This document shows positions 35,038-59,414 of a stretch of 64,000 nucleotides of DNA, one piece after another. Both the position numbers and the translations under genes were made by a program. The notes beneath the pieces are model-generated. The model had not been told where the DNA came from. It did not search any database and was given only the letters and a program-made list of their open reading frames with translations. Origin of the DNA: Roseomonas aeriglobus (lineage in GTDB: Bacteria > Pseudomonadota > Alphaproteobacteria > Sphingomonadales > Sphingomonadaceae); the NCBI GenBank assembly GCA_016937575.1, contig JAFHKN010000002.1, positions 2,542,001 to 2,606,000 of the forward strand, given 5' to 3'. Position 1 is the first letter of the stretch, and each line of letters opens with the position of its first letter.

Positions 35038-37983
35038 TTATCTGCTGGGGCCGCTGCTCCAATCGATCGGTGCGCGACCCGAGTGTTGCGCGCTGCGGGC
35101 ATTGTAGGCGCGCATCGCCGGCGCGAACTCGGGCGGCCATGCCGGCCTCCCGGCCTCCCGGCTGGCGCGGACGGTGGCGACGACGAGATCGGAAATACGT
35201 TGATCATGCCGCCAGCCGTGCAACAGCGACGGCATCAGCATCGGGGCGCCTTGGGCGGCCATAAGCCCCCCGTCCGAGGCGAAGATAACGCGCCGCGGGT
35301 GCTTTGCCACTAGGTCGAGCAGCATCAGCAGCTGTTCGGTCGGCTTGCCGGTCGTACGGTCGAAGGCAGAGACACGAACCGCCGGACGCTCTCCGGTGAA
35401 CGGTGGCAACGGCGTGCTGAGCCAACCGCCGAACCCGTCCGGGATCGCCGTTACGGGTGTGGTCGGCGTAACTCTCCTTGCCACGGTCTCCCTGGCTTTC
35501 CGATCGCGCTCGTAATGCGCGGCACGGATGCGCTGCTCGGTCCCGAACATGTCATGCTGGAATCCCTCGTCCGCCGCCCAGCGGTCGAGGCGCTTGAGGT
35601 GACTGGGGTCGAGGTCACGCGGCCAGATGCGGATGCCATGTCGGGAAAAGTCGAGCGGCCGACGATCGGCCTCGCCCAGCATTTCCGTCACCACCTTCTG
35701 CTGATCGGCACGAATTTCGCCAAGAGCCCGTTGAATTTCGGGACGAGCAAGCCACTCGTCGGATACACCCATCGCGTGTGCCTTGGCTCCATCGATGGTC
35801 AGACTGGTCCCGCCGCCATAGTCTGAGACATAGACGTCGCGGTTGCGGATTCCGTCGAGTTGAAGACGGTCGGCGGCATCGAGGAGAGGAGCGCCGTTCG
35901 CCTCGAACGGCATGCGGGGATGCGCTTCCAGCCACTCGCGCGTATCCAGCTCCGTGCGCGTCGGTGTGATATTCCGATCGTCTGACGCCCAACGTCGCCT
36001 GCAGCGCTGTCCCTGCTGGCTGACGATCGGTACTGTCCTGACCGACGGTGGTGATTGCGACTGCGCCAGCTTTACAGGCTTTGGCTCCGTTGGAGATGTT
36101 TGGACATCTTCATCCTGCAGCGCGGTCGGGCGGCTGGCTTCCTTCGCACGATTCCGCGCTGCGGCGCGCTTCTTGTCACGCTCGACGCGCGCGGCGGCGA
36201 GCGCGTGGAGCAGTTCGTCGATCTTGGCGGCGGCCTTGAGGTCAGTGTGTGAAGCCCGTGACGAGGGCACAAGCGGCGGTTTGAGCGTCCCTGCGACTTT
36301 CGCGCGCACTGAAAGCGTCGGCACTAAGCCGGCATCGGCCCGCGAGGCGATCAGCGGCGGTGCTCGTTCCCCGATCGTTTTTGCGACTTTCAGCTTGGCC
36401 AGGATAGTGACGGGCTTCGACAGAACCAAGCGGTCCGGCGGCTCAGGTTGGCGCGATGTGATGAGCGGTTGAACCGCCTCGTTCCGAAGTCGGCGGCTCG
36501 ATCGTAGTGGCATCGGCGAGAAGCGCGTCGTTTCTACCGCGGGCTTCATCGGCATCGGACTAACGTGGGGTTTCTGGCTCGCCACAAGCGAAACGCGGTG
36601 GCGCGGCCCCTTTTCTCGCCCGGTCGATGCGACGAGCGGCGGCCTCTCCGGCGATATGCTCGACACTGCCAGCATTTCGTCACTGGCTTGCCTATGGCTG
36701 GAGCACTTCAGCGGCGCCAGCCCGATGCCGGGCCGCGCAGAACTCACGACGCGCGTGCGCACGTCGCCCTCGCTTCGCGCCGCCATGTTGGCGACCGCAG
36801 CGTCCCGCACTTTGGTAAGCGCAGCGATCTTCCGGTCGGCATCGCGGATCGCGCGGCGTGCGGCGTTGCGCGCGTTCTTGATGCGGTTGCGCTCATGCGC
36901 CCAGACGTTATCGCCGCGCTTTACCATCGCAGCACGCCCCTCGCCCAGATGCTCGCCAGCTTCGAGGTCGAGCCCGCGCGCGCCGTACCCCAATCCGGTG
37001 TAGCGGCGGTTGCTTCGCGCCCATTCGGCAGCCTCTGACATCGAGTGCGCCCACAGATGCCGGAGCATCTGCACGCCGTCCTTGCCATCAAGCTCACCGC
37101 GCACCTCGTCGGCGACCTCCCAGCAATAGGGCTCGACACGGCGCATCGGCCGCAGCGAGAAGGCGAGATGGGGGTGGAAGTTGCGTTCGTCGCCGCCGTC
37201 GGACGGACGATGGATGACAGCAGAATAGGGCAAGCCCAGCGGCTCCAGCACCGTCTCGCAAAAGTGCCGGAGCGCGAGGATCATCTCTTCCTGGCTCATG
37301 TCAGCGTCGAACGGCGCGATAGCGCGGATCTGGATCTTGGCGTTCTTGCGGACGCTGGCGTCCTCCATCGCTTGCCAAGCCGCACCGATCTCGATCCAGT
37401 CGTCGCCCATGTTCGAGATGATGACCGGCTCGCCCTCCGCGTCGCGCAACACGGCCTCATCGCGGACATCATATTCCCAATTGTCGCGCGCGGCTCCGCG
37501 ATAGAAGTTCGGAGACTTGCGGCCGAAATAGCTCTGCTGCCAGATCACGCCGCGCATACCCCGGTCGTCGATCACCCAGGACGACGCGGCGTGGACCCTG
37601 GTGACCGTTCGGTTCGTGAGCGGCGTCAGCGTCAGACGCTTTTCGACCGGCGACGTGCGCGTTTCCGGCTTGTCCGGCCGGACGAGAACCCTAATGCGCG
37701 CCGCATAGCGGATGCGGTCGAGCTCGACCTCGGCAAGCTCCCGCATCAGCCGGCGTGCGGCGGCGCGATCCTCGAGCGCCATCTGCACTTCGACGGCTTT
37801 TTCGTGGCGCCGGATCTTGGCCTGTTTGCGCGCCTCATCGCGCGCCTGTTTCATCACGATCCGACAGTTTCTAGCGGTTGCAGGGATGCAACTGCCGTCG
37901 GGCAGGACGAGATAGAACTCTATGGGCGGCGGGGGTGGGACAGGGCCGGCGAAGCCGCCTGAATTCGACGAAGACGAATTCAT
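35038..37983 (-). CDS. MobA/MobL-family relaxase
   Basis: 981 aa. The relaxase domain covers roughly residues 90-400. The metal-binding histidines are H258 and H270xH272 in VIHRPSDGG...NFHPHLAFSLRP, the MobA/MobL pattern. The rest is a long, charged, low-complexity linker (about 400-680) and a C-terminal domain of unknown role starting near DIRNRDVYVSDYGGG. It would nick the element at its transfer origin and lead the strand. No coupling protein or type IV secretion genes are visible, so the element would need a helper. One GTTACATCGTC motif lies about 220 bp upstream. Confidence 0.85.
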   Translation of the reverse strand: MNSSSSNSGGFAGPVPPPPPIEFYLVLPDGSCIPATARNCRIVMKQARDEARKQAKIRRHEKAVEVQMALEDRAAARRLMRELAEVELDRIRYAARIRVLVRPDKPETRTSPVEKRLTLTPLTNRTVTRVHAASSWVIDDRGMRGVIWQQSYFGRKSPNFYRGAARDNWEYDVRDEAVLRDAEGEPVIISNMGDDWIEIGAAWQAMEDASVRKNAKIQIRAIAPFDADMSQEEMILALRHFCETVLEPLGLPYSAVIHRPSDGGDERNFHPHLAFSLRPMRRVEPYCWEVADEVRGELDGKDGVQMLRHLWAHSMSEAAEWARSNRRYTGLGYGARGLDLEAGEHLGEGRAAMVKRGDNVWAHERNRIKNARNAARRAIRDADRKIAALTKVRDAAVANMAARSEGDVRTRVVSSARPGIGLAPLKCSSHRQASDEMLAVSSISPERPPLVASTGREKGPRHRVSLVASQKPHVSPMPMKPAVETTRFSPMPLRSSRRLRNEAVQPLITSRQPEPPDRLVLSKPVTILAKLKVAKTIGERAPPLIASRADAGLVPTLSVRAKVAGTLKPPLVPSSRASHTDLKAAAKIDELLHALAAARVERDKKRAAARNRAKEASRPTALQDEDVQTSPTEPKPVKLAQSQSPPSVRTVPIVSQQGQRCRRRWASDDRNITPTRTELDTREWLEAHPRMPFEANGAPLLDAADRLQLDGIRNRDVYVSDYGGGTSLTIDGAKAHAMGVSDEWLARPEIQRALGEIRADQQKVVTEMLGEADRRPLDFSRHGIRIWPRDLDPSHLKRLDRWAADEGFQHDMFGTEQRIRAAHYERDRKARETVARRVTPTTPVTAIPDGFGGWLSTPLPPFTGERPAVRVSAFDRTTGKPTEQLLMLLDLVAKHPRRVIFASDGGLMAAQGAPMLMPSLLHGWRHDQRISDLVVATVRASREAGRPAWPPEFAPAMRAYNARSAQHSGRAPIDWSSGPSR

Positions 37984-38594: not shown

Positions 38595-38878
38595 TTGGCT
38601 GGCGCGACATCGGTGGCGAACTTGCCGTCCTCGCCGAAGCGGAATCGTGGGACCGCGACGCGCTCGTGGCGGACTGGGCGGTCAGCCGAGCGACCGACGC
38701 GGCCGCGCTCTTGCTGTGCAAGGCGCTGGTCCAGTTCGGCAAACGGCGGGATGTGGCTTTGCTCGACCGCATGCCGGCACCGCTCCGCTACGCCTGCGCG
38801 ACGACAATCGCCGGCTGCCGCTACGAAGTGCGGCGGCGGTCGCCTCGAGATAATTGCCGCATCGTCGCCGACTTATTC
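38595..38878 (+). pseudogene. Unidentified truncated coding fragment
   Basis: A plus-strand frame with strongly coding-like codons reads GWRDIGGELAVLAEAESWD, ALVADWAVSRATDAAALLLC, LVQFGKRRDVALLDRMPAPL and AGCRYEVRRRSPRDNCRIVA. It abuts the hydrolase remnant on one side and runs into the antisense of the next gene on the other. No plausible start codon lies inside it. I take it for the interior of a lost gene; the family is not recognised. Confidence 0.4.
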
Positions 38879-39394
38879 GTAGTGATGGTCGCGCGGGTCG
38901 AATCCACGCAGCTTGTCGTTGTGCCGCCTTTGCCAGAATCGTTTGAGGTTCCGCAGGAACCGGCCGGTGTTGCGCGGACGGCGTTCGAATACCGGCTTGC
39001 CCAATTTGATGTCGCGCAAATGCGCGATCGCGCGATGATAGCGGATCGGGGCATGGTCGTCGAAGGTAAGGTAGATCGTCTCGCCTATCTTCTCCCAAAC
39101 CAAGGCGATGCTCTTCGACGGCGCGAACTTCGCATGGCGAATGCCGTTGCCGTTATGCTTGAGCATTTGCCCGCGGCTCGGCACCGGATCGAAGTCGAGC
39201 GCACGGATCAGCTCGGCGATATCGGGGCGCCGGGCGTAGAGATCGGCCTTGACCAGGTCGCCGCCTTGCTTGTCGACGATCTCGTCGATTAGCGCGCGCA
39301 GGATGGCGAAATGCTGCGGTGCCTGCCGCTTCAGGTTCTTGAGCCAAGCCCGGCCGTAAGCGCGGTTGGCGAAGGTGATGCGCGATACGGGCAC
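38873..39394 (-). CDS. Basic 173-aa protein, last gene of the defence-like operon
   Basis: GTG start three bases after the stop of the EVE-HNH gene. 173 aa, rich in Arg/Lys (ANRAYGRAWLKNLKRQAPQHF..., RRPRNTGRFLRNLKRFWQRRHNDKL). No domain recognised; LVWEKIGETIYLTFDDHAPIRYHRAIAHL suggests a small alpha/beta core. The charge suggests nucleic-acid binding. Tight spacing says it is co-expressed with the two nucleases upstream. Confidence 0.65.
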   Translation of the reverse strand: MPVSRITFANRAYGRAWLKNLKRQAPQHFAILRALIDEIVDKQGGDLVKADLYARRPDIAELIRALDFDPVPSRGQMLKHNGNGIRHAKFAPSKSIALVWEKIGETIYLTFDDHAPIRYHRAIAHLRDIKLGKPVFERRPRNTGRFLRNLKRFWQRRHNDKLRGFDPRDHHYE

Positions 39395-39396
39395 GC

Positions 39397-40626
39397 TCAA
39401 AGTCGCGTTTTCGCGATGCGCAACGGCGTGCTGTCCAGCACGACGATCCAATGGTCGGCCTCGTCGCGCGCGATCGCGAAGCGCCCGTAATGCGCCTGGC
39501 GATGATGGTTCGGGCACAGCACCATGATGTTGAGATGGCTGAGCACGCCGGTCCGGAGCGTCGAGACCGGGATGACGTGGTGCGCCTCGGCATAAACGGT
39601 CCCGTCGAGCTTTGTGAAGGCGCGGCCCTTGTTGCCGAGCGCCACGCAGATCTGGCAGCGCCCGCGATGCGCCGCCTTAACCGCTTGGCCGACCGGCCCG
39701 CGCTCGATCACCGTACTGACGCGCTCCTTTCGCGTCGGTGTCGCGTCAGCAGCCTCGGTTTCGAGTGCGCGCACGCCTGCCGCGTTGCGGCTGGCGCGCA
39801 GAGCGACGAGGTCCGGGCCGGTCAGTCCGAGCGCGGTCGCGATCGACACAAACACGTGGCGCTCGATCGGAATCGTGGTGCGTTGCGTCGCGTCATGAAC
39901 ATATTGGAACGCGGGCTCCTCGGGAAACGCTGCGGCGCTCACCGAGCGGTCGGGCTCGGTAATCACCGCAAGCCTGGCGCGGAGAGCCGGAGCGCCGTCG
40001 GCGGGGTTCTTGAAGAAGCGCGTATCGGGCTCGGCGAGGAGGGTGGGGGCGGCCAGCACCTCGACCGCGGCGATCAAAGTGGCCGGCGCGCCGCGCCGGC
40101 GATTGACGCGGATCAGGCCGAGATCGCCTGGCTGCATCTTCAGGTGGTCATCCTTCGAGACGAGATAGAGCAGCTCGCCCTCGCCTGTCGCGCGCCACCG
40201 CTCGGCATCCCACCGTCTGGGATTGCCGAGGAACAGCCAATAGCCGGTCGGTTTGTAATGTTTGGTCGAGGGCAGCGGATCGTGCAGCGCGCGGATCAGG
40301 TCGTCGTCCGACGGCGGCGCGATCGGCGGCAGCGGGTGCGTATCGTCCGGCAAGCCATGAGGGATCGCGATGCCTCGCACCGACTGGTAGCCGAGGCGCT
40401 TGAAGCCGGCCACCGCGTCATAGGTCTGGAAGCTGGTCGGCGCGATCGCCGGCCGGTGCGCCGCGGCCCACAGCGCCTTGATGTCGTACTGGACACCGTC
40501 GTGATCGATATACCAATTATCAGAGCCCCTGCCGTTCGCGTGACGGACGAGGAACTCGCGGCGGCCGAGGCGGCGCGCCTCGCGCATGCGCCGCTCGATG
40601 CTGGCCTTGGTCGGTTGGCTGGCCAT
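39397..40626 (-). CDS. EVE-HNH endonuclease (predicted modified-DNA restriction enzyme)
   Basis: 409 aa in three parts. Residues 1-85 form a head module (SDNWYIDHDGVQYDIKALWAAAH). Residues 127-255 match the EVE/PUA-like fold that flips modified bases (YWLFLGNPRRWDAERW...ELLYLVSKDDHLKMQPGDLGLIRVNRR). Residues 324-380 are an HNH nuclease: CQIC zinc knuckle, EAHHVIPVS, then HLNIMVLCPNHHRQAHYG. EVE plus HNH proteins are known or predicted type IV-like restriction enzymes acting on modified phage DNA. It lies 30 bp after the DUF4365 gene in one operon. Confidence 0.8.
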   Translation of the reverse strand: MASQPTKASIERRMREARRLGRREFLVRHANGRGSDNWYIDHDGVQYDIKALWAAAHRPAIAPTSFQTYDAVAGFKRLGYQSVRGIAIPHGLPDDTHPLPPIAPPSDDDLIRALHDPLPSTKHYKPTGYWLFLGNPRRWDAERWRATGEGELLYLVSKDDHLKMQPGDLGLIRVNRRRGAPATLIAAVEVLAAPTLLAEPDTRFFKNPADGAPALRARLAVITEPDRSVSAAAFPEEPAFQYVHDATQRTTIPIERHVFVSIATALGLTGPDLVALRASRNAAGVRALETEAADATPTRKERVSTVIERGPVGQAVKAAHRGRCQICVALGNKGRAFTKLDGTVYAEAHHVIPVSTLRTGVLSHLNIMVLCPNHHRQAHYGRFAIARDEADHWIVVLDSTPLRIAKTRL

Positions 40627-40656
40627 GGTCGGCGCGACTCCTGTTTTGCTGGCCCG

Positions 40657-41724
40657 TCAGGCGCTTGCGGCGGTCAGGCAGTCGAGCATCACCGAGTCGC
40701 CCCGATTGGGCCATTTCGCCCGCAGATAGTCGCGCACCCCCGGGTCGAGCCTGAGCGTGACCCCATCATGCGTGAGGTCGTCCTCGGGCTGGTTGGCGAT
40801 AAACATGCCGAAGGGATGCTGCCCGGGGAAACGCTCGCGCATCGCGGCGTACCAGGCGGCCGGCGCGAGCTGTGCCTTGGCGAACGCTTGGGGAAGGCCG
40901 AGCGCCAGAGCATGATCGGCCCATGCGTCGTACAGCGCGCCGAGCGCCTGGATGCCGACCCGCGAATGGCTGACGTCGCGCTTGACGAGATGGACCATGT
41001 CGTCGGCCGCCAGCGCGTCGCCCGCCGTCCTGACCAGCGCCAGCATGACCGGGAGATATTGCTGGGCTTGCCAATGCATGATGTTGGAGCCGGCCGCGGT
41101 CATCTGGTCGACGATCATGCGGATCGTCCAGTCGCGGCTCGGATAGTCGGTGCGCCCAAGCAGCTCTACGATCCCTTGCGCGATCGCGGCGTTTTCCCAG
41201 CCATGGGCGACCGCGAGCACGCCGCGCAGCGCCAGCACCATTGCTACCGGAAGGCGCCCGGCCGCGATGTCGGCGAGGTCGTGGTCGAGTCCGGCCGCCA
41301 GCGTCTGTTCGATTGGCGCGCGCAGCGTGATCGTCTTGCCTCTCGCGTCGGTGAGACGCCGTTCGTTGATCAGCGCCCAGGCTTGCGCCCACACCCACCA
41401 CGCTTGCTGGCCGTCGGCGGTCGTTGCAACGAGTATGACGGGGACGCGGAACTGGCATGCGTAGTCGAGCCAGGCTCGCTCGACCGCGACCGAAACGTGA
41501 GCGGCGCTGGGGGCGGGCGTGGCGCCCGCCTTGATCTGCAGCTTGATCAGCTGCCCGCGCAGGACTTGGCCGTCGGGCCCGGGATCGGCGAGCTCGGCTT
41601 CGAGATCGATCCCGAAGTCACTGTCCTGCCGCCGCGCCACCCAGCGCGGATGATCGTCGATCAGGCTTTCGACGGCGCGCTCGCCGGTCCTGCCGATACG
41701 TTGGCTGGCGTTGCGGATCGGCAT
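40657..41724 (-). CDS. DUF4365-domain nuclease-like protein
   Basis: 355 aa. AGGAGCGAGG directly before the ATG at 41724 fixes the start; the open frame extends further upstream. Residues 8-70 read RIGRTGERAVESLID...RQDSDFGIDLEAEL...GQLIKLQIKAG, the DUF4365 pattern of a PD-(D/E)XK-like nuclease fold, with Asp in DFGID and a Q-x-K in place of E-x-K. The remaining 280 residues are helical and unrecognised. DUF4365 proteins are common in defence islands. It lies 50 bp after the radical SAM gene. Confidence 0.72.
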   Translation of the reverse strand: MPIRNASQRIGRTGERAVESLIDDHPRWVARRQDSDFGIDLEAELADPGPDGQVLRGQLIKLQIKAGATPAPSAAHVSVAVERAWLDYACQFRVPVILVATTADGQQAWWVWAQAWALINERRLTDARGKTITLRAPIEQTLAAGLDHDLADIAAGRLPVAMVLALRGVLAVAHGWENAAIAQGIVELLGRTDYPSRDWTIRMIVDQMTAAGSNIMHWQAQQYLPVMLALVRTAGDALAADDMVHLVKRDVSHSRVGIQALGALYDAWADHALALGLPQAFAKAQLAPAAWYAAMRERFPGQHPFGMFIANQPEDDLTHDGVTLRLDPGVRDYLRAKWPNRGDSVMLDCLTAASA

Positions 41725-41774
41725 CCTCGCTCCTTGGTACGTCGGCGCGTCGGCGGCGACGCCGTTGTGAGAAT

Positions 41775-42836
41775 CTAGCGGTTGCCGCAGACGACGAGCT
41801 CGTCGAACAGCGGACAGCCGTTTTTGCAGCTGGGCCGGTGGGAACAGTCGCCGCAACGGTCGGACGCGAAATAGCGCCGGAACGAGCGGACATTTTCCGA
41901 GCCGTGCCAGATATCGAGCAGTGACGTCTCGTCGCTGAGCGTGTCGCCCTCGACCAGCCCGCTTTGGAACGAGCAGGGATAGACCTTCATGTCTTCGGAC
42001 ACGTAGAGCGAGAACCGGCCCGCATCGCAGGCATCGACCAGCGCCTCATTGGCCTGGGTACGGGCGAACACCCCGCTCACGCAGCAGGCATCGAACCCGA
42101 CCCTGAGCTTCGCGTCGGGCGCTGTCGCAAGCGCGAAGAATTCATCGAGCCGGTCGCTATGCCGGAGCATTTTTTCCTCGAAAACCTTTCGCCCCGAGGG
42201 CTTGTAGTTGAGAAAAATGAGCGCGTTGATCGGTGCGAGAAAGGCGGGCGGATCGCTGAGCCAGTCGATCGCGGTGTCGACGCTGTCGCGGTCGATAATG
42301 AAGTGGACATTGGTCTTAATGCTGTGGTCGGCGAGCAGGCGGATGGTCTCGGCGGTCTCGACATACGGCGGGTAGGCGGAGACCGCCACCGCGCCGCAGG
42401 TGCGGCGCGTCGCCGCCAATATCTCGTCGGTCAGCCCGCGCCCGTTAGTCGTGTAGTTGGGGACGATCCCTCTCGCCCAGGTATAGTCGAGGATCTCGAC
42501 AAAATCGGGGTGCTGGTTGGGATTGCCGCCGCCGAGCGCGACTTGGAAGGTGCCCATTTCGGCCGCCTGGTCGATGACCCGCTTGTAATCGGCGAGCGCC
42601 ATGTGCGACCCGTGCCGGGTCGAGCTTTTGTAGCAGAACACGCAGCCCTTGTCGCACCAGTTGGTGATCGAAATATCCATCAGCTCGGGGCCGTGCGGCG
42701 ACCAGAACGGTTCGCGCTGGCCGGGCTCGGGGACGCGCGCGAAGAACCCGGTGCGCGCGTTGAAGAAGGTCGCATAGCCGAGATCTTTGTAGCGATTGAC
42801 GCGCAAGCGCGCCTCACCAATAGTTGTCATAGGCAT
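41775..42836 (-). CDS. Radical SAM enzyme with SPASM-like C-terminus
   Basis: 353 aa. The 4Fe-4S site is C61xxxC65xxC68 (TNWCDKGCVFCYKS). The GGGNP SAM-binding segment (VALGGGNPNQHPDF) follows. The C-terminal region carries seven or more cysteines (DACCVSG, VYPCSF, RCGDCSHRPSCKNGCP...VVCGNR), the layout of SPASM auxiliary clusters found in enzymes that modify peptides or proteins. The ATG lies inside the last codons of the 132-aa SNSSS-protein gene (23-bp overlap), so the two are translationally coupled and that small protein is a candidate substrate or partner. Confidence 0.85.
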   Translation of the reverse strand: MPMTTIGEARLRVNRYKDLGYATFFNARTGFFARVPEPGQREPFWSPHGPELMDISITNWCDKGCVFCYKSSTRHGSHMALADYKRVIDQAAEMGTFQVALGGGNPNQHPDFVEILDYTWARGIVPNYTTNGRGLTDEILAATRRTCGAVAVSAYPPYVETAETIRLLADHSIKTNVHFIIDRDSVDTAIDWLSDPPAFLAPINALIFLNYKPSGRKVFEEKMLRHSDRLDEFFALATAPDAKLRVGFDACCVSGVFARTQANEALVDACDAGRFSLYVSEDMKVYPCSFQSGLVEGDTLSDETSLLDIWHGSENVRSFRRYFASDRCGDCSHRPSCKNGCPLFDELVVCGNR

Positions 42837-43212
42837 TGATGAAGAACCTTTCGGACTCGATCTCGAAAATCTCGGTGCACAGCGTCATCTCGGCCAGATT
42901 GTTCTCGCTGCTAAAATGGCCGATCGTAACCGTCTGTCCGTTTTCGATGCCCTTCTTCATGCGATCGAGCACGTCCGGCATATAATGTTGCCGGTCCTCG
43001 AGACGGTCGACATCCTCAACCCGCGTGAGCACGGTGCCGCGGTCGATCTGAGTCCTAAGCTCATCGAACATGCCGTTGAACAGCGGCGCAACCGGGCTGT
43101 CGGGACCGACGCCGGCCGCCGTCAGGAAATCGTCTCGCGACAACATTTCCCGGGCGATATAGACGAACGAGGTCGACGAGCTGTTCGAGACGAAGTCCAT
43201 CTTAATCTTCAT
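42814..43212 (-). CDS. 132-aa protein with N-terminal FVSNSSSTSF motif
   Basis: 132 aa. Opens MKIKMDFVSNSSSTSFVYIA. From memory, an N-terminal (K/R)xxFVSNSSSxSF signature recurs in unrelated small proteins of unknown function, which makes it a possible recognition or modification tag. The rest is acidic and helical with one Cys (MTLCTEIFEIE). Its start overlaps the 121-aa gene by 11 bp and its end overlaps the radical SAM gene by 23 bp. That places it as candidate substrate, adaptor or inhibitor for the radical SAM enzyme (inference). Confidence 0.7.
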   Translation of the reverse strand: MKIKMDFVSNSSSTSFVYIAREMLSRDDFLTAAGVGPDSPVAPLFNGMFDELRTQIDRGTVLTRVEDVDRLEDRQHYMPDVLDRMKKGIENGQTVTIGHFSSENNLAEMTLCTEIFEIESERFFINAYDNYW

Positions 43213-43567
43213 GACTGCCCTCCAACTTCCTTACGCAATCGATGACCGTGTCCCGGACATTGTCGTCATAGGCTTCTTCGAGCACGCCCCCGGGTGACTT
43301 GATCTTGAGGATGTGCGTCTTTTCGAGCTCGGTCGGTTCGAGATAGATTTCATGGGCCATTTCGAGATAGGCCGCGAGCGTCGGATACTCCACGCAATAA
43401 TATTGATCATATTGCGCGCGCAGGTCGGTCGACCAGGCGAAGAGCTGATTGTAAACCCCCGTGAACAGTTGCGCCCCGAGCCCGGTCGGCTTGATCTGCA
43501 AGGCATCGAGAAATTCGCCGAGCGGCGGAATCCGGCGCAACGGCAAGACCAAATCCTTTTCGGTCAT
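43202..43567 (-). CDS. 121-aa protein of unknown function
   Basis: 121 aa starting at an ATG that overlaps the STAND gene stop (ATGA). Reads as a compact helical protein (LGEFLDALQIKPTGLGAQLFTGVYNQLFAWSTDL...YYCVEYPTLAAYLEMAHEIYLEP...VRDTVIDCVRKLEG). No family recognised. Overlap on both sides indicates obligatory co-expression between the STAND NTPase and the SNSSS protein. Confidence 0.7.
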   Translation of the reverse strand: MTEKDLVLPLRRIPPLGEFLDALQIKPTGLGAQLFTGVYNQLFAWSTDLRAQYDQYYCVEYPTLAAYLEMAHEIYLEPTELEKTHILKIKSPGGVLEEAYDDNVRDTVIDCVRKLEGSHED

Positions 43568-46230
43568 GCTGGGGCTCCCGCGGGTTCTGCGATGTCCGCC
43601 AATAGCGTTTGCACCGGCGCGGTTTTGGCCGGCCGGACCAGCGCCAATGCTTCGACGCAATTGGCGGCGTCCCCGGCTTCCTGGAACAACGTGGAAGCGC
43701 GCTCGCGTTCGAGCCAGCCGGCATGTGCGGCGGCGTGCAGGAAGAACGCAAGCCAATGGGGGGCGTATCGAACCAATCCTCGGCCGCCTTCGTCTTCCGC
43801 GACGTCCGTCACCAGCTCGTCGATACTTTGCCGCCACGCACGGGGGTCGTAATCGCGATGGCCGCCGAAGATCGCACGGATGAAGGTGGCGTGCTCCTCC
43901 TCGTCGAGGCCGTTCAAATGATCGATGAGGATCGCGATGTTCAACAACTCGGCTGCGTTGCGCCGGTACAGCAGAAATAGCGCGATGCGGCGGCGCCGCC
44001 GGGCCGCGCCGGCGTCCGCCAGGATGGCCTTTACCCGCGCGATGTCCTCGCTCGTCTGCACCGCGGGGGGCAGAAGATGGACGTTGAGGCTGAAATGCTC
44101 GGTGAAGTTCGTCGCGTTCTCGCAGGCCGCGATGGCGGCTGCGTTGTTCGCCCTGCGCGCGAGCAGATAGGCGTAGCGGTAGACGCCTTCATAGACAGGG
44201 CGGCCGGACAAGCGGGCCAGTATCTCGGACAGCGCCTGGGCTTGGTCGGCAGCCGCACGATCGACCAGTTGATAGGCGATTACGAAGTCCCTGAGCTCGT
44301 CATAAGTGAAGGAGATGGCGAGGTCGCCGGCTGCGGCGAGGCCGTCGCTTTCGACTTCCCGGCGGAGGATGACGTCGTCCTCGACGAAGCGCCGGACGAT
44401 CTCTTGTTCCTCAAGCGTGAAATCGCGCACCGACAGCTTGGAGAAATCGTCCGCGGCGAGCATCGCCGCTGCGATCTTGAACAAGGTGGGCAAGGCCTTG
44501 GCCTGGTGCTGCTGCGGAAAGGAGTCGATCTTCTTGCGCAGATAGTCGGCGAAGAGGTCGCCTTTGTAGATGTCGGTCACATACCCGACATCGCTGCCCT
44601 CATAGCGTTCGCAGAAGATCCGTAGCAGCAACAGATCGTTTTCGAGGAACGCCTTGGCTTGCCCCTGCAGCGACCCTTTGATGCTGAAATGCGCAAGATA
44701 GGCCTTCAACAGCCGCGCCCTGCTGAGGTCGGTCATTTCAGACCGCAAGTCTTTCACGCGGTGGATATGGGCCGCGAACGGTTCGTTGAGCATCGTGGCG
44801 AAGCGCTCGTCGAAGAATTCGCTGCGGCAGGTGATGACGAGCTTGATCCAATCATATTGGCAAACCGCGCCGCAGAAGGCCTTGAGCTCTTCGTTGAAGG
44901 AGCTGAGGTCGGTTACTTCGTTGATACCGTCGATCAGGATCACGAACGGTTTTTCCACGTCGTGTGCGACATGGTCAAACAGGGTCAGATAATCGTGTAG
45001 CCTGGTGCCGTCGGGCGCATAGCGGTTGTGCGCGATATAATCGAACAGCCGCTTGCCCGGTGCGAAGCCGTTCAGCTGGCGCGCTGGTATGAACAGGCAC
45101 GGAATCGCAAAGAGCCGAAACTGATTCTCGACCAGGTCGCACACAAAGTTGGTCTTACCCTGACCGGCCATGCTGGTGACGAGGAAGATCTTGTTGCGAA
45201 TGAGGTCGATCAGCACGCGCGCGTCGTTCAAGCGCGATGTCAGCCCGCTGGCGGAACCCTCCAGCTGGAGTCGTGCGATCATCCAGCCCGCCGAGTCTGG
45301 GTCCGCCGGCTTGTAAGGCGCCTCACCTTCGCCGCGATACCACGACAGCGGGCGGACCTTGGCCAGCTCGACGCCGATCGAGTCGCTCGCCCGGTCGAGC
45401 CATGCGCCGAGCTCAGCGAAGCTCGCCGGCGCGGCGCTGAGCAGGCTGGCGTCGACGTCCGACACCAGCTCGGGCTGGCCTGCTATTCTCAAGCTGGCAT
45501 TGAGACGATCATAGGAGAAACGGCGAAGTTTGTCCTGGATCTTGCGATAGAAGAACAACGGATTGGCGAAAAGCCTCATCTCCTCTTTGGTGGAGTATGT
45601 TTCCACGAAGATCGCCGGAATGTATTTCCGCGACGTCTTTTCCACCTCGATCTTCTCGGTCGAAAAGGCGAGAAACTTGTCGAGTTGCTCACGGAACCTT
45701 GCATTGCTGTCGCGCTTGGCCCAGCTCGCGGCGAGATACTGATCGATGGCCTCGAGCTTGCTCGTCTCGAGGTGCCGGATGCGCGCCAGCATATCGCGCC
45801 AATCGACGATGTGCTGGGCCGGGTCGAACGTGATGGCGAGCGCGGCGATCGCCAGCTCGAGCCGCTTCGCCGTGTATGACGACTGCTTCTCGGTTAGTGC
45901 GATGACGTAGAGGTGATCGAACGTATTATCCAGGCGATGCTGGTGAAACTTCTCGAGCGTCTTTTCTACCTTGCCGCTCGATCCGTCGGTGGTCACCTGG
46001 AACGCGATCCTGCTCGTCGCGCACCCCAGGTCCACGGCCGGGAAGTTGGCTCGGACCTTGTTCATGTTCTGCAAGTCAGGGCAATCGAACACCAGTTTCA
46101 GGGCCGGTATGAGGAAATCTTCGGCAACCGAGTTGATGTCGAACCGACCGACCGCGTTGAGCGCCCTGATCTCGTGCTCGAGGCGCCCGACATATTTGGC
46201 GATGTTGTTGAGGTGATCGTCGCGGTTCAT
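43564..46230 (-). CDS. STAND NTPase with N-terminal SMEK domain
   Basis: 888 aa. Residues 1-165 match the SMEK domain found on bacterial STAND ATPases (NNIAKYVGRLEHEIRALNAVGRFDINSVAEDFLIPAL..., PAVDLGCATSRIAFQVTTDGSSGKVEKTLEKF). The NTPase has a P-loop at 352-361 (TSMAGQGKTN), Walker B at 429-438 (FVILIDGINE) and a sensor-like VITCRSEFF. The C-terminal 350 residues are helical repeats for ligand sensing. Avs-like and other STAND proteins detect phage proteins and trigger effectors. It has no ribosome site of its own; its ATG overlaps the stop of a 30-codon leader ORF. Confidence 0.85.
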   Translation of the reverse strand: MNRDDHLNNIAKYVGRLEHEIRALNAVGRFDINSVAEDFLIPALKLVFDCPDLQNMNKVRANFPAVDLGCATSRIAFQVTTDGSSGKVEKTLEKFHQHRLDNTFDHLYVIALTEKQSSYTAKRLELAIAALAITFDPAQHIVDWRDMLARIRHLETSKLEAIDQYLAASWAKRDSNARFREQLDKFLAFSTEKIEVEKTSRKYIPAIFVETYSTKEEMRLFANPLFFYRKIQDKLRRFSYDRLNASLRIAGQPELVSDVDASLLSAAPASFAELGAWLDRASDSIGVELAKVRPLSWYRGEGEAPYKPADPDSAGWMIARLQLEGSASGLTSRLNDARVLIDLIRNKIFLVTSMAGQGKTNFVCDLVENQFRLFAIPCLFIPARQLNGFAPGKRLFDYIAHNRYAPDGTRLHDYLTLFDHVAHDVEKPFVILIDGINEVTDLSSFNEELKAFCGAVCQYDWIKLVITCRSEFFDERFATMLNEPFAAHIHRVKDLRSEMTDLSRARLLKAYLAHFSIKGSLQGQAKAFLENDLLLLRIFCERYEGSDVGYVTDIYKGDLFADYLRKKIDSFPQQHQAKALPTLFKIAAAMLAADDFSKLSVRDFTLEEQEIVRRFVEDDVILRREVESDGLAAAGDLAISFTYDELRDFVIAYQLVDRAAADQAQALSEILARLSGRPVYEGVYRYAYLLARRANNAAAIAACENATNFTEHFSLNVHLLPPAVQTSEDIARVKAILADAGAARRRRRIALFLLYRRNAAELLNIAILIDHLNGLDEEEHATFIRAIFGGHRDYDPRAWRQSIDELVTDVAEDEGGRGLVRYAPHWLAFFLHAAAHAGWLERERASTLFQEAGDAANCVEALALVRPAKTAPVQTLLADIAEPAGAPA

Positions 46231-46319
46231 CGGACCAGCAGCCGCCGCGAGCGCCGAACCTCGAGGTTGCCGTCTGCGCCGCGCTGACGCTGCTCGGTGT
46301 GCCGGTCGGCGCGAGACAT
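46227..46319 (-). CDS. 30-codon leader ORF coupled to the STAND gene
   Basis: ATG at 46319 with AGGGGAG six bases upstream, the strongest ribosome site of the whole operon. It encodes 30 residues, very basic, ending RRSRRLLVR. The TGA stop overlaps the STAND ATG (ATGA), and the STAND gene lacks a ribosome site, so its translation should depend on this ORF. It could be a leader peptide, an antitoxin-like inhibitor or a trigger. Recognised only from position and ribosome site. Confidence 0.55.
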   Translation of the reverse strand: MSRADRHTEQRQRGADGNLEVRRSRRLLVR

Positions 46320-46580
46320 TAATTCTCCCCTAAGCGCATGACTATCGTGAATGCGCGGTGCGGCGCAAGCAGGCGACCGGGTCCTAGGCTGTGCCGTTTA
46401 CGGATCGGCTGGCGCCGCGCCGCTGGTGGGCGACGGTCGGGAGGCGGCCCTGCGCACATGGCGCCGAAGAGGTCGGTTCGGTTTTCATAGGATCGGACGG
46501 TGGCCGGACGAAGGTCCGCTTGTCGGCTTTCCGTTTTAAGTGCGGTCAGTCTGCAAGCGGCCCAATTCCAGTCGTATCGC
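46320..46580. promoter_or_regulatory. Upstream region of the defence-like operon
   Basis: About 260 bp between the leader ORF and the stop of the next minus-strand gene. The operon promoter should lie here. No -35/-10 pair is convincing, and no GTTACATCGTC motif is present, so this operon appears to be controlled separately from the element's core genes. Confidence 0.35.
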
Positions 46581-47228: not shown

Positions 47229-47310
47229 GATGCGGTGTGCCGCGGGACGAACGCATCGTGCAAGCAGCACCCTTGCCAATAGTTCTATAATGTCTTATAG
47301 GGCAGTTGCC

Positions 47311-47982
47311 ATGAACCTGATCACGCACTTTCCTGTCCCGCCCGACGAGCCGGCCTCGTCGATCGTTCACGAGGCGGTCGGCCGCTTTTCGATCGAGGTC
47401 GACGCGGCATATCCTCACGTCATTTGCCTGATGGTGTCGGATATCGGGTCCGGCGGCGCGAGCAGCATCTGGACACGCCACTTCGGCGATCTCGCCGACC
47501 GTGACGCGGTGCTCGAGCGGTTCCAGACCGGCGCGCTCGATCTGACATTCCTGGCACGGGTGACCATGATCTTCGGCCCTGTCGCGATCACGGGGGCGGT
47601 CGATCGCATCGTGGACGCGGCTCGCAAGGCTCGTCGCGCACGCGCCGAGGCGGAAGCCCAGCGCCAGCGCGACCGAAACATCATCAACCTCTACGCGCCC
47701 GACACGAAGCGGGGATTCAAGCTCGAGCTCCAGCGCAAGAGCGACAGTCATGCCGAGTGGTCAGTCCGCTACGACCGCGCAAGCGAGCGCGACCGACTGT
47801 GCGACTGGTTGCGCTGGCAGAAGCCACGCTTCGAGGCCTTTCTCGGTCACGCCGCCGAGCACGGCGGCGAGGCGCTGACCCGCCTGCTCATCGACGAGAT
47901 GTTCGAGACCGAGCGGCGCATCAAGAAGGATGGGCGCGGCGCGGGCGGCATGCGCCCCTTGCGGATGTGGCGGGGCGACTGA
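47311..47982 (+). CDS. Hypothetical protein upstream of the AAA-Ubl-E1 cassette
   Basis: 223 aa; ATG at 47290 is an alternative start. No family recognised. The middle has a charged helix (AARKARRARAEAEAQRQRDRN), and the C-terminus reads WLRWQKPRFEAFLGHAAEH...LLIDEMFETERRIKKDGRG. Its TGA overlaps the ATG of the AAA-like gene, so it belongs to the cassette. Confidence 0.6.
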   Translation: MNLITHFPVPPDEPASSIVHEAVGRFSIEVDAAYPHVICLMVSDIGSGGASSIWTRHFGDLADRDAVLERFQTGALDLTFLARVTMIFGPVAITGAVDRIVDAARKARRARAEAEAQRQRDRNIINLYAPDTKRGFKLELQRKSDSHAEWSVRYDRASERDRLCDWLRWQKPRFEAFLGHAAEHGGEALTRLLIDEMFETERRIKKDGRGAGGMRPLRMWRGD

Positions 47983-48878
47983 TGAACGAGCTCGCAACTT
48001 TCCGCCCCGCGACGCCCGCGATGGTTGTCGGCCGCGCCTTCGACGGTGGTCCCGCACCGCTGGGCCTGAGCGAACCGTTTGCGCTTCGCGGGGGCGATCG
48101 GCTCGGCCCCGACGGCATCGCGTTCGATCTGATGCACGAGCACCAGCCGGCATTCCTGCGCTGGGTCACCACGAGCTGTCAGGCGCTCATCGCCGCCGAG
48201 CGGCCGTGGTTTCGCGGCGCGCCGATCCTGGCCACCGGGCCGGAAGGCGCGGGGCGGACCCATGCCGCGCGCCGCCTTGCGCGTGTTGCCGGGGTACCGC
48301 ACGTCATCCTCAACCTGACCGATCCCGTGATCGCCGCCAACGTCGCGTCGTCGGGTCGGGTCAGCGAGGCGCTGTGGGCGTCGCCCCTCACCATCGCCAT
48401 GGCGGCGAAGCGCTGCGCCAACGCTATTGCCAGCGTCGTCGGCATCGACAAGGTCGGGGACGATGTCGCCAGCGGTCTCGTGGCCATGATCGATCCCGCG
48501 ACCGGCCGGTCGTGGAGTGAGGACAAGCTCGAAACCGAGATGGATTTCGGCGAGGTGACGTGGATCGTCCAATGCGACGACCTGACCCGCGTGCCCCCTG
48601 CCCTGCGCGCTCTGGCCGCGCACGTCGCGTTCTCCGAGATGCCGCGCGGCATCGAGACGACCGCCGCGCTGTCGATCTTGCTCGAGGTGCTCGACGACCT
48701 GGGCCTCGACGAAGCCGATCCGGCATTCGAGTGGACCAATGTCGCGCGAGCGCTCGGCGGCCACCCCCGCGGCGCGAAGAGCCTCTACGCCCAAATGGCT
48801 CATGCCGTCACGACGATCGCCCGCGAGGGCCAGCCATCCGTCGCGAGCGGCGGTGACGACGACGATGTCCCTTTCTGA
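47982..48878 (+). CDS. AAA-ATPase-like protein with degenerate Walker A
   Basis: 298 aa. ILATGPEGAGRTHAARRLA occupies the P-loop position but has Arg where the catalytic Lys of GxxxxGKT should be. The Walker B-like TWIVQCDDLTRVP has two Asp. Later elements (HVAFSEMPRG, GGHPRGAKSLYAQMAHAVTTIA) fit a Lon/FtsH-like AAA small domain. It may bind nucleotide without efficient hydrolysis. It lies in a cassette with a ubiquitin-like protein and an E1. Confidence 0.6.
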   Translation: MNELATFRPATPAMVVGRAFDGGPAPLGLSEPFALRGGDRLGPDGIAFDLMHEHQPAFLRWVTTSCQALIAAERPWFRGAPILATGPEGAGRTHAARRLARVAGVPHVILNLTDPVIAANVASSGRVSEALWASPLTIAMAAKRCANAIASVVGIDKVGDDVASGLVAMIDPATGRSWSEDKLETEMDFGEVTWIVQCDDLTRVPPALRALAAHVAFSEMPRGIETTAALSILLEVLDDLGLDEADPAFEWTNVARALGGHPRGAKSLYAQMAHAVTTIAREGQPSVASGGDDDDVPF

Positions 48879-48897
48879 CGTTCAACAAGGAGAAGAC

Positions 48898-49284
48898 ATG
48901 ATGACCTCGCCTGCCACTACTTTCGAGCCCGGCGGCCGGCCGACCGTTGCCCCGGCGCACGACGCCGTCCCGGCCGTTCGGCCGCGTCCGCATCTGTATC
49001 TCGTTGGCGAGGCCGAGCGCTCGCATCGCGCGCCGACAGCACCGGCCGGCCGGATCTCGATCCAGGTCAATGGCCGCTGGCACGCGCTGCGGGGCCGGAC
49101 CATCACGTTTGCGCAGCTGCTGCGCATGGCGTTCCCCGACCGACCGCTTGCGTTCGCCCAGGCCGCGACCGTGTCGTTCCGCGGCGGCGTGGCGACGCGG
49201 CCGAGCGGCCTGATGACCCCGGGCGATGTCATCGAGGTCGCCGACGGGCTCGTCGTCAATGCCGACGCAACCTATGCCAGCTGA
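48898..49284 (+). CDS. Ubiquitin-like (multiubiquitin-type) protein
   Basis: 128 aa; AAGGAGAAG precedes the double ATG. Residues 1-48 are a disordered Pro/Ala-rich leader. From about 50: GRISIQVNGRWHALRGRTITFAQLLRMAF..., TVSFRGG...GLMTPGDVIEVADGLVVNADATYAS. This is the pattern of the bacterial multiubiquitin domain (beta-grasp), usually encoded next to a ThiF/E1. There is one copy only. The chain ends in Ala-Ser, without Gly-Gly, so conjugation would need trimming or another C-terminus. The E1 gene overlaps its 3' end. Confidence 0.72.
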   Translation: MMTSPATTFEPGGRPTVAPAHDAVPAVRPRPHLYLVGEAERSHRAPTAPAGRISIQVNGRWHALRGRTITFAQLLRMAFPDRPLAFAQAATVSFRGGVATRPSGLMTPGDVIEVADGLVVNADATYAS

Positions 49285-50053
49285 ACAACCAGCGGCCGCA
49301 GTCGCGTCGCCGTCCCCGAGCCCATTCGTGTATGAAGACACCGCCGCGACCCGCGCCGGGCTTGCGGCGGTATCGGCGCGGCTGGCCGGCGGCAGGATCG
49401 CGATCATCGGACTGGGAGGCACGGGCTCCGAAGTGCTCGACCTCGTCAGCAAGACGCCATGCGAGCGCATCCTGCTGTTCGATGGCGATCATGTCGAGCA
49501 GCACACCGCGTGGCGCGCACCGGGCGCCATGTCGTGGGGCGATGTCATCGCCGGGCGTTACAAGGTCGAGCATTATGCCGACGTGTACCGCCGCATGCAC
49601 AAGGGCATCCTGACCTACGCCGAGGATCTGACCCCGGACAACGCCTACCTGCTCGACGATGTCGACTTCGTGTTCGTCTGTGTCGACAGCGTAGGCGCGC
49701 GGGCCTTCATCGTGCCCGAACTCGAACGACGCGATCTGCCGTTCATCGACTGCGGTCTCGGGTTGCGGCTGGTCGACGACCGCGTTCTGGGACAGGTGCG
49801 CGTGACCACCAGCACACCGGCGATGCGCGCCCATGTTCATAAGGGCAACCGTATACCCGTGGCGGGCCGCGACGACGACGAACTCTATCGTAGCAACATC
49901 CAGGTTGCCTGCCTCAACCGCCTCGCCGCCACCTTGGCCGTGATCCAGTACAAGCAGTTGCGCGGCTTCTACGCCGACTCCGAGGCCGAATATCACTGTG
50001 TCTATTCGGTCGACGGCAACACCGTCGTCAACGCGGATCACGCACCGGCGTGA
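49259..50053 (+). CDS. ThiF/E1-family adenylyltransferase
   Basis: 264 aa (ATG at 49274 also possible). Rossmann adenylating core: RIAIIGLGGTGSEVLDLVSKTP, then ILLFDGDHVEQHTAWRAPGAMSW, the form seen in E1-like proteins paired with multiubiquitin domains (LFDGD...HNAFRAPGA). DFVFVCVDSVGARAFIVPEL and PFIDCGLGL follow. A candidate catalytic Cys is in EAEYHCVYSVDG near the C-terminus. It would activate the adjacent Ubl C-terminus with ATP. No E2 or JAB gene was found beside it. Confidence 0.8.
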   Translation: MPTQPMPAEQPAAAVASPSPSPFVYEDTAATRAGLAAVSARLAGGRIAIIGLGGTGSEVLDLVSKTPCERILLFDGDHVEQHTAWRAPGAMSWGDVIAGRYKVEHYADVYRRMHKGILTYAEDLTPDNAYLLDDVDFVFVCVDSVGARAFIVPELERRDLPFIDCGLGLRLVDDRVLGQVRVTTSTPAMRAHVHKGNRIPVAGRDDDELYRSNIQVACLNRLAATLAVIQYKQLRGFYADSEAEYHCVYSVDGNTVVNADHAPA

Positions 50054-50068
50054 CGATGATGGATGCGC

Positions 50069-50905
50069 TTACCGGTCGCGCTGCATCATCTGCTCGCCGC
50101 GCGCGGCGAGGCGATAGAGTTCGGTGATCTCGCGGCTGGTCGGGCGCCACGGGAAAGCAGGGTCAGCGCCGCGCGGAAGCGCAGCCCATGCGGCCTTCGG
50201 GATCGGCCGCAGCGGCTCCCAGGCGGTTTCGAGCTCGAGGACAGCGTCGTCGCCATCGTTCCGGACCTCAAAGACCATGAAGTCGTGCGCCGCGAAGAAC
50301 GGATGGTCGACAATCTCGGCTGCCCGCCATCGGTCGTTGCTCTTGGAACTCTTCTGGAGCGCCGTGACGATCGTATCGGGCAAGTGCTGCCGGCGGAGCC
50401 TGATGGTCGCTTTGTCCCCCAGCACGGCGAAGGCCCGCACGCGGTGCGAGAGTTCGATCTGCTCGGCAACGGCCTGGCCCGCGCTGACCCTGATCTTGAC
50501 CGACATCTGACCGAGATCGCGCCGCGCGCGCCGCGCGAACCGGCCAACGATCGGCGCGGCGCCGGCTTGATCGGTAAGGTCGAGGGCGTTGGCCAAGGCG
50601 CGGTCCGTACGCGACCAAGCGAGCCACCGGGCGAGCACCGACGACCCCGACACCAGCCAGAGCGGCACACCCGTCTCGCCCGCTGCGGCGATCATCGCGT
50701 TGGCACGCTCAAAAGCAATCCGCGCCTCGATCGCCGCAGCGAGACGTTCGAATCCATGCGGAAGGGCATCGCCGAACACGATCGTCAGGCCGGCGATCGT
50801 CACCGCGAACTGGTCGCCGCCCCCCGAAATCGTGACACTTGCCGGGTCGACATTGGCGAGCATCGCCTCGGCAAGCGCTCGCGGCGCCTCGCGCTTGCCG
50901 ATCAT
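50069..50905 (-). CDS. Hypothetical protein convergent to the E1 gene
   Basis: About 278 aa (ATG at 50965 is an alternative). No family recognised. It looks like alpha/beta sequence (VTIAGLTIVFGDALPHGFERLAAAIEARIAFE, HDFMVFEVRNDGDDAVLELETAWEPLRPIP). Its coding character is better than that of the overlapping plus-strand frame, and the plus gene downstream has its own ribosome site at 51028. Confidence 0.6.
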   Translation of the reverse strand: MIGKREAPRALAEAMLANVDPASVTISGGGDQFAVTIAGLTIVFGDALPHGFERLAAAIEARIAFERANAMIAAAGETGVPLWLVSGSSVLARWLAWSRTDRALANALDLTDQAGAAPIVGRFARRARRDLGQMSVKIRVSAGQAVAEQIELSHRVRAFAVLGDKATIRLRRQHLPDTIVTALQKSSKSNDRWRAAEIVDHPFFAAHDFMVFEVRNDGDDAVLELETAWEPLRPIPKAAWAALPRGADPAFPWRPTSREITELYRLAARGEQMMQRDR

Positions 50906-50985
50906 CGTCTGGTTCCCGCCCCGCTCATGCCACAACGCGATAGCGCGATGACAGCAATTTTGCACATCGCAACCAGCAACCGCCG

Positions 50986-50996
50986 GTTACATCGTC
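50986..50996 (+). promoter_or_regulatory. GTTACATCGTC motif, copy 2
   Basis: Exact GTTACATCGTC followed after seven bases by TTTTGG, 42 bp before the ATG at 51038. Same orientation and similar spacing as copies 3 and 4. Confidence 0.65.
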
Positions 50997-51037
50997 GATC
51001 GAGTTTTGGCGCGCCACGCTTCCTCTCGGAGGCAGCG

Positions 51038-51895: not shown

Positions 51896-51901
51896 GCGCT
51901 C

Positions 51902-59368: not shown

Positions 59369-59414
59369 CCCCCGCATTACGAATGCGATGCTCTACCAGC
59401 TGAGCTAAGGCGGC
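59339..59414 (-). tRNA. tRNA-Thr (anticodon CGU)
   Basis: The complement folds as a full cloverleaf: acceptor GCCGCCT/AGGCGGC, D-arm with AGCTCAG..GGT, anticodon stem GCATT/AATGC with loop TTCGTAA holding CGT, T-arm with GGTTCGAGTCC, discriminator A and an encoded CCA. CGU reads ACG codons, so threonine. The 3' half overlaps the last 30 bases of the serine recombinase gene: the element has integrated here, restoring a complete tRNA. Confidence 0.95.

Follow-up and report, generated by a model that had tools for sequence, protein, structure and literature searches.

A conserved four-gene cassette that joins a STAND NTPase to a radical SAM enzyme and its probable tagged substrate: a candidate mobile defence system in Roseomonas aeriglobus

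The DNA analysed here (the window) is a stretch of 64,000 nucleotides from Roseomonas aeriglobus (assembly GCA_016937575.1, contig JAFHKN010000002.1, positions 2,542,001 to 2,606,000), with a G+C content of 64% in a host genome of 4.28 Mb. It carries a cassette of four overlapping genes that encode a STAND NTPase, a protein of 121 amino acids (aa), a protein of 132 aa that begins with a conserved tag (the SNSSS protein), and a radical SAM enzyme with a SPASM region. The same genes are found in the same order across bacterial phyla, the tag of the SNSSS protein recurs in large phages that have a homologue of the enzyme, and the SNSSS and 121-aa proteins are related to each other. We propose that the four genes form a mobile STAND (NLR/Avs-like) defence cassette, in which an enzyme-modified tag protein would provide the input by docking through its paralogue; taken as a whole, we regard this proposal as evenly balanced between right and wrong.

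Gene content of the cassette

All coordinates are positions in the whole window, and all cassette genes are on the minus strand.

43564..46230, minus: NLR-like STAND NTPase of 888 aa, encoded by the first cassette gene (ORF (open reading frame), Pfam, Avs2-like core, predicted fold)
45715..46230, minus: putative N-terminal effector domain of the STAND, residues 1-172, SMEK, an Mrr-type nuclease domain (Pfam and PDB match)
44236..45255, minus: NTPase core of the STAND, residues ~326-665, Walker A AGQGKTNF, Walker B IDGxNE (alignment A5, match to Avs2 9o4e)
43567..44253, minus: short C-terminal helical region of the STAND, residues ~660-888 (paralogue fused behind it in three loci)
43202..43567, minus: 121-aa protein, SNSSS paralogue, probable docking subunit of the STAND (hhalign and fusions)
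42814..43212, minus: SNSSS protein of 132 aa that the radical SAM enzyme probably takes as substrate (alignment, tag-enzyme association)
43159..43212, minus: N-terminal tag of the SNSSS protein, MKIKMDFVSNSSSTSFVY (alignment of SNSSS rows)
41775..42836, minus: radical SAM/SPASM enzyme, 353 aa (Pfam, NCBIfam, alignment A1)
42633..42656, minus: radical SAM [4Fe-4S] motif CxxxCxxC (C61, C65, C68), invariant in A1
41787..42029, minus: SPASM region, CX2CX5CX3C (C328, C331, C337, C341) and C350, invariant in A1
43564..43567, minus: overlap of the STAND and 121-aa genes, 4 bp, ATGA (ORF positions)
43202..43212, minus: overlap of the 121-aa and SNSSS genes, 11 bp (ORF positions)
42814..42836, minus: overlap of the SNSSS and radical SAM genes, 23 bp (ORF positions)

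An earlier reading of the sequence alone (the sequence-only reading) had described a run of overlapping or closely spaced minus-strand genes here, and all of them are present, with the overlaps of 4 bp (ATGA), 11 bp and 23 bp as it gave them.

Conservation and mobility of the cassette

The enzyme was sought in 84,980 species genomes with an alignment (A1) made from the window's enzyme and 23 homologues out of 120 listed; the scan gave 112 relatives, of which 80 were kept, representing 78 distinct loci, and the partner genes were sought by running profiles of the other cassette proteins on the ORFs of these loci. The order STAND, 121-aa protein, tagged SNSSS protein, enzyme is kept in 68 of the 78, in hosts named as Proteobacteria, Bacteroidota, Clostridia, a cyanobacterium, Chloroflexi, Verrucomicrobia, a planctomycete and others. 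A conserved co-occurrence of the small, radical SAM and STAND genes, which the sequence-only reading had put forward as its own test, is therefore borne out, and in a single order across phyla. In the 60 loci with four separate ORFs, the gene distances (with relatedness left in) co-vary among the enzyme, the SNSSS protein, the 121-aa protein, the STAND core and the STAND C-terminus (r 0.79 to 0.93).

Six of the ten loci that lack the full order are cut by a contig end (L046, L050, L053, L059, L072 and L078), and in three others (L055, L062 and L075) the partner genes are missing and no more than a C-terminal piece of the enzyme is left; these are probably decayed cassettes. The true exception is L074, a gut deltaproteobacterial locus with three tagged genes and the enzyme, with no STAND within 10 kb and no 121-aa gene nearby. 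Two of the truncated loci are likewise deltaproteobacterial: L078 has two tagged genes and the enzyme before the contig end cuts it, and L072 has the enzyme and, at the contig end, a partial SNSSS-like ORF. In the Xanthobacter cassette (L003), the STAND gene is present as three ORFs (L003:6458-9272).

Comparison of the DNA with five near relatives indicates where the cassette begins and ends. In three of them (L003, L004 and the plasmid locus L196) similarity spans 41775 to 46232/46233, that is, from the stop of the enzyme gene to the start of the STAND gene, and because it ends at these borders the cassette appears to be mobile as a four-gene unit. Similarity to L002 is wider (41525 to 46567), and that to the short locus L081 starts at 41525 and reaches into the STAND gene. 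The distribution of the enzyme is sporadic (2 of 61 related genomes, including its own), and the SNSSS and tag profiles each match a single genome of the phylum, that of the window (1 of 398 and 1 of 299 genomes, respectively). The enzyme occurs on seven plasmid records, and L196, the one opened, holds the whole cassette; complete cassettes are also found in the viral-collection contigs of L082, L083, L084, L098 and L102.

The sequence-only reading had extended the system to eight genes, by adding a leader ORF and three genes that follow the enzyme:

40657..41724, minus: DUF4365 gene, ATG at 41724, 50-bp gap after the radical SAM gene (Pfam 6e-15)
39397..40626, minus: EVE-HNH gene, 30-bp gap after the DUF4365 gene (Pfam HNH_2 5.7e-5; the EVE domain scores under the Pfam cut-off)
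38873 (stop) to ~39394-39400 (start), minus: basic protein gene, ~2-bp gap after the EVE-HNH gene
46319..46459, minus: leader ORF, 46 aa (ORF present)

Among the 78 loci, the only DUF4365 match outside the window's own genome is an ORF of 65 aa in L002, and neither the EVE-HNH nor the basic protein is matched in any, 48 of the loci having at least 4.5 kb of sequence downstream. The leader ORF is matched in the near-identical locus L002 only, the one other match (E 0.74) lying elsewhere in L033. Because the downstream genes and the leader ORF are not kept with the cassette, we reject the eight-gene composite operon; all four look, from these comparisons, like passengers. The proposed role of the three downstream proteins as effectors is unsupported for the same reason, and also because DNA similarity to L003, L004 and L196 stops at the radical SAM stop codon.

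The STAND NTPase and its exchangeable N-terminal domains

The N-terminus of the window's STAND matches Pfam SMEK_N (5.7e-40), and this SMEK domain matches the Mrr domain of an Mrr-APAZ prokaryotic Argonaute (pAgo; PDB 26bh, E 3.6e-31). Alignment A5 combines the window's STAND with 45 of the 52 listed, short, fused and near-identical ones being excluded. In all 46 rows G356, G358, K359, T360, D434 and E438 are invariant, in agreement with Walker A and Walker B motifs of the NACHT type, and the core matches Avs2 (PADLOC 3.5e-18; PDB 9o4e). The structure predicted for the protein has a pLDDT of 89, and a Foldseek search with this model has NLRC4 as its top match (E 5e-7) and Avs4 as its third (E 1e-5).

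The first ~200 residues of the 46 STANDs fall into groups without mutual BLASTP links: an SMEK group of 18 (with E37, D67, Q78, T80 and K87 invariant in all 18 rows), an unnamed helical group of 6, a trypsin-like group of 6, an unnamed group of 4, three groups of 2 that include PNP and TIR-like domains, and six singles. Names were sought by running Pfam on ten representatives, which yielded trypsin (one model above and one below its cut-off), PNP (above), and a CAP12-type TIR domain and an alpha/beta hydrolase (both just under). Such a modular N-terminus is the arrangement by which STAND/NLR-like NTPases carry their effectors, and the effector of the cassette is likely to be the STAND's own swappable N-terminal domain, in the window the Mrr-like nuclease domain.

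A trypsin-like query matched nine loci, and in all nine the gene directly upstream encodes a protein of the metallo-beta-lactamase (MBL) fold related to that of L077; L065 and L067 share this MBL-trypsin layout and are near copies. PADLOC names the MBL gene of L077 LmuA or Avs1a, and the N-terminus of L043 Avs1b. The trypsin-like part of L049 stands as a separate ORF, which gives the order MBL - trypsin-like - STAND. At its other end the window's STAND is short, its 888 aa comparing with 1,317-1,576 positions of the Avs2 models. The long C-terminal part of Avs2 is its sensor, and by analogy we infer that the three small genes replace this missing part.

Two related small proteins and the radical SAM enzyme

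The SNSSS protein of the window was aligned with 55 tagged proteins less than 85% alike (A3, in which rows needed a loose tag pattern, and from which those of L065, L067, L074 and L078, not all ending in Trp, are excluded), and the 121-aa protein with 52 others (A4). These alignments, of 56 and 53 rows, align with each other (hhalign probability 97.8%, E 7.3e-13), and the profile of each set matches members of the other; the two proteins are paralogues. Both the tag and the C-terminal Trp are absent from the 121-aa protein, and in L037, L063 and L070 this paralogue is fused to the C-terminus of the STAND.

The tag has the consensus MKIKxDFV[ST]NSSSTSF, and all 56 SNSSS rows share N10, S11, S12, T14, G34, S102, C112 and W132. 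The structural model of the SNSSS protein has a pLDDT of 85.7, with residues 1-9 below 50. All 73 tagged ORFs of the bacterial loci lie just upstream of the enzyme gene, and none is found elsewhere in those loci; 66 of the 73 end in Trp, 4 in Tyr, 2 in Arg and 1 in Ile. Because of the paralogy, the fusions to the STAND, and the tagged genes that accompany the enzyme in L074 without a STAND, the simplest reading of these sequences is of two pairs, one of enzyme and tagged substrate and one of STAND and paralogue, which would be joined by contact between the SNSSS protein and its paralogue.

Both domains of the enzyme score above their Pfam cut-offs (Radical_SAM 3.3e-13, 50.6 bits against 29.5; SPASM 2.5e-6, 28.1 bits against 21.5). 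The best curated NCBIfam match is mycofactocin MftC, at 85.6 bits against a cut-off of 265, and the viperin (pVip) family scores 30.1 bits against 180; among the 25 of 48 NCBIfam matches listed, the enzyme reaches the cut-off of no named enzyme. The nearest solved structures are 5v1q (listed as Radical SAM, and which we take to be SuiB), PqqE 6c8v and SkfB 6efn. SPASM radical SAM enzymes with known products cross-link, epimerise or oxidise peptides; the substrate of this one is not to be named from family membership, because the MftC match is far under its cut-off. In E. coli genomes, a search with a Vibrio DNA query did not match the enzyme.

The tag and the enzyme in phages

The window's SNSSS protein has no phage match by tblastn, and the link to phages is visible with the tag profile only. 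The viral search found 147 stretches with the tag pattern, and the results that follow from it come from 16 confirmed by tblastn. Viral loci L085-L097 contain up to eleven small genes whose products are near-identical over their first 16 residues and have different bodies (the contig of L087 has eleven tag-profile matches); six of the contigs measure 236 to 548 kb, and the remaining ones, 7 to 63 kb long, are fragments. In 7 of these 13 loci (L085, L087, L090, L091, L092, L094 and L095) the fetched stretch itself includes an enzyme homologue; for L086, L096 and L097 the homologue is on another part of the contig (that of L097 being also the contig of L122), and none was found on the 63-kb contig of L088 or in what was fetched of L089 and L093 (from contigs of 20 and 16 kb). 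The tag is thus portable, heading unrelated proteins in large phages that have an enzyme homologue, and this pairing of an enzyme with varied proteins that have one recognition sequence in common is like that of ribosomally synthesised and post-translationally modified peptides. The full SNSSS profile aligns over most of its length to four phage proteins (in L087, L088, L093 and L149). In three loci there is another, different radical SAM gene directly behind the tagged genes (L086:8381-9445, L088:9389-10420 and L097:9058-10089).

For the converse search, a viral enzyme scan used an alignment (A6) of six enzymes beside tagged phage genes, two from gut deltaproteobacteria and that of the window; 80 of the 317 relatives were taken, some of them near-identical. 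Tagged ORFs, 147 in number, are present in 59 of the 80 loci, a share that is a biased estimate because the A6 enzymes came largely from loci with tags. All 147 are on the strand of the enzyme gene, compared with 0.0 in a control with shuffled ORFs; counted by profile, there are 151 in 59 of the 80 loci.

Cultivated phages show the same pairing. Their enzyme homologue is PHROG 7293, present in Citrobacter phage Miller (L183 and L186) and in 173 records, and one tagged protein of Miller is found in 175 records from nearly the same organism groups, an agreement that is not independent because the records are those of close relatives. Whole genomes were searched for three phages chosen for having the enzyme and for six others as references: tag matches number two in RB43, two in RB16 and five in Vibrio phage D479, and neither tag nor enzyme was found in T4, RB69, RB49, KVP40, 44RR2.8t or phiKZ. 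Phages Miller and phT4A have two tagged genes each; a vWA gene sits between the two of Miller, whose tagged proteins are CPTMiller_00117 and CPTMiller_00122.

Because tag and enzyme occur together in both phages and bacteria, the tag is likely to be the recognition and modification site of this enzyme family. The sequence-only reading had the enzyme modify either the SNSSS protein or the NTPase, and the association makes the SNSSS protein the most likely target.

Proposed mechanism and alternatives

The mechanism that we favour builds on the directly observed gene order, effector swapping, paralogy, fusion and phage tag-enzyme co-occurrence. The radical SAM enzyme would recognise and modify the N-terminal tag of the SNSSS protein, a step suggested by the genomic association and which we consider quite probable. 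The SNSSS protein would then pair with the 121-aa paralogue, the presumed docking subunit of the STAND; the pairing is suggested by homology, the fusion of paralogue and STAND is observed, and docking of the SNSSS protein on the STAND in this manner seems to us somewhat more probable than its opposite. During infection the tag protein or its modification state may be altered, and that such a change is the trigger we put forward tentatively, with doubt slightly outweighing belief. The STAND would thereupon oligomerise and its N-terminal Mrr-type nuclease would act.

Several observations weigh against this scheme. By query length, the TM-scores of the fold matches to NLRC4 and Avs4 reach only 0.21-0.25. 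Co-variation with the partner genes extends, more weakly, to the exchanged N-terminal part of the STAND (r 0.76 to 0.85), and therefore its swapping follows lineages and is not free; on this pattern the effectors differ between lineages, and the core, the 121-aa protein, the SNSSS protein and the enzyme stay together. PADLOC matches were found in only 2 of 10 downstream neighbours sampled. A profile made from the SNSSS body alone gave no match among the tagged proteins of phages (its best E is 0.027), so that the part shared by phages and cassette is short. Tagged ORFs are missing from 21 of the 80 viral enzyme loci, including L176 with 21 kb of sequence, and the association of tag and enzyme arises in part by construction, because A6 drew largely on tag-bearing loci. 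Finally, the tagged genes of Miller and phT4A are ~19-23 kb from the enzyme gene, with none within 5 kb.

The alternative that survives best, though an unlikely one, is that the enzyme synthesises a small molecule or has the STAND itself as its target, and that the tag is a binding handle or a structural start. The best match of the enzyme is MftC (far under its cut-off, at 85.6 of 265 bits), and a tag could serve for recognition only; against this, numerous phage proteins with no relation to each other begin with the tag in genomes that also encode the enzyme, and L074 keeps three tagged genes and the enzyme with no STAND within 10 kb.

A further possibility, which we rate a little lower, is that of an immune system that watches protein modification by large phages: the SNSSS protein would be a decoy substrate, its modification would be disturbed by phage tagged proteins or the phage enzyme, and the STAND would read the disturbance via the paralogue. 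Such a guard or decoy role is attractive because T4-like and jumbo phages carry the same tag and enzyme.

Somewhat less credible again is modification at the C-terminal Trp of the SNSSS protein, with the N-terminal tag as leader, by analogy with MftC, whose site of action is the C-terminal Tyr of MftA. NCBIfam ranks MftC first for the enzyme, and 66 of the 73 SNSSS ORFs of the cassettes end in Trp and 4 in Tyr; the 147 tagged phage ORFs, however, end variously, one only in Trp, and because the phage proteins have no common C-terminal residue we downgrade this residue as a general site.

It is improbable that the enzyme-modified SNSSS protein is itself the effector, as a secreted or intracellular toxic peptide that the STAND merely switches on. 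A radical SAM domain that modifies a peptide effector is proposed for a different NTPase system (PMC7159879), but the STAND of the cassette already has a swappable effector domain, and the SNSSS protein is predicted to be folded and has 132 aa, while in three loci its paralogue and the STAND are a single protein. We think it just as improbable that the cassette is a regulatory or a plasmid or prophage maintenance module, as its copies on plasmids and viral-collection contigs might suggest, given that its effector repertoire is one of known defence (Avs1a/LmuA- and Avs1b-like, TIR-like, PNP and Mrr) and its STAND core resembles Avs2.

Returning to the defence cassette proposed above, we consider it very probable, by analogy with these systems, that the cassette protects against phage. 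Ten proteins encoded upstream, chosen by size and closeness and so non-random, include six of defence type (two Eco57I, two MBL, one GmrSD and one Cas1).

Relation to known systems

The cassette shares with the Avs2/Avs family the NTPase core, the layout of N-terminal effector and STAND, and effector swapping. It differs from Avs2 in its shorter STAND, which has no long C-terminal part and has three partner genes instead; the NCBIfam Avs2 equivalog scores 41.7 bits against a cut-off of 1000, over the core only. The gene order of AVAST type 1 is MBL (Avs1a) - trypsin-like (Avs1b) - STAND, and MBL and trypsin-like parts, as in AVAST type 1 and Lamassu LmuA, are shared by the trypsin-type cassettes of nine loci, where they are joined to the module of paralogue, SNSSS protein and radical SAM enzyme. 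The window departs from AVAST type 1 in the Mrr domain of its STAND and in the lack of a Pfam match for the gene upstream. The effector domain is also that of Mrr-APAZ short pAgo (PDB 26bh), yet the STAND has no Argonaute or APAZ matches (Pfam, NCBIfam, PADLOC) beyond the N-terminal restriction endonuclease part.

With MftC, SuiB, PqqE and SkfB the enzyme has in common the radical SAM and SPASM cysteines and a small protein encoded next door; unlike theirs, its substrate would be a folded protein of 132 aa with a conserved N-terminal tag. It resembles pVip as a radical SAM enzyme in a defence setting, with a weak match, but it has a SPASM region and, in the 68 complete loci, a small tagged partner. 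Among the papers matched, the closest idea (PMC7159879) is that a radical SAM domain likely modifies a neighbouring peptide effector in the vWA-MoxR FtsH ternary NTPase systems; the passages concerned name no STAND partner, SNSSS tag or paralogue. For bNACHT25, action by guarding is described in PMC12169576, and PMC10853773, PMC12390700, PMC10250203 and PMC13356809 are also related. PADLOC, NCBIfam and Pfam name parts of the cassette and no system, and among the open-licence PMC papers listed as matches, no title, abstract or passage shown mentions the tag or such a union of STAND NTPase and radical SAM enzyme. The effector swapping in the cassette, the paralogy of the SNSSS and 121-aa proteins with its fusions to the STAND, and the portable tag are new.

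STAND/NLR-type immunity is known mainly for direct ligand binding or guarding. If the proposed mechanism is true, this immunity gains an enzymatic, post-translational input; under the decoy alternative, it gains an NLR-like guard of a radical SAM protein-modification pathway. In either case, cultivated phages, among them RB43, RB16 and KP15, link a portable N-terminal tag to a radical SAM enzyme, and the chemistry of the putative protein modification is directly testable in laboratory phages.

Surrounding genes

Upstream of the cassette, genes for a multiubiquitin and a ThiF (E1-like) protein (48892-50053, plus strand) are flanked on both sides by genes without Pfam matches (47263-54603). A large serine recombinase gene (57737-59414), whose end overlaps a tRNA-Thr gene, likely marks one end of an island; direct repeats of at least 18 nt, sought in 30000-62000, form four families, none of which frames the island. 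On the other side, a gene for a MobA/MobL-type relaxase of 981 aa (35038-37983, minus strand) is a likely mobility gene of the island, and the DUF4365 and EVE-HNH genes (39397-41724, minus strand) are perhaps an independent defence pair that now stands behind the cassette.

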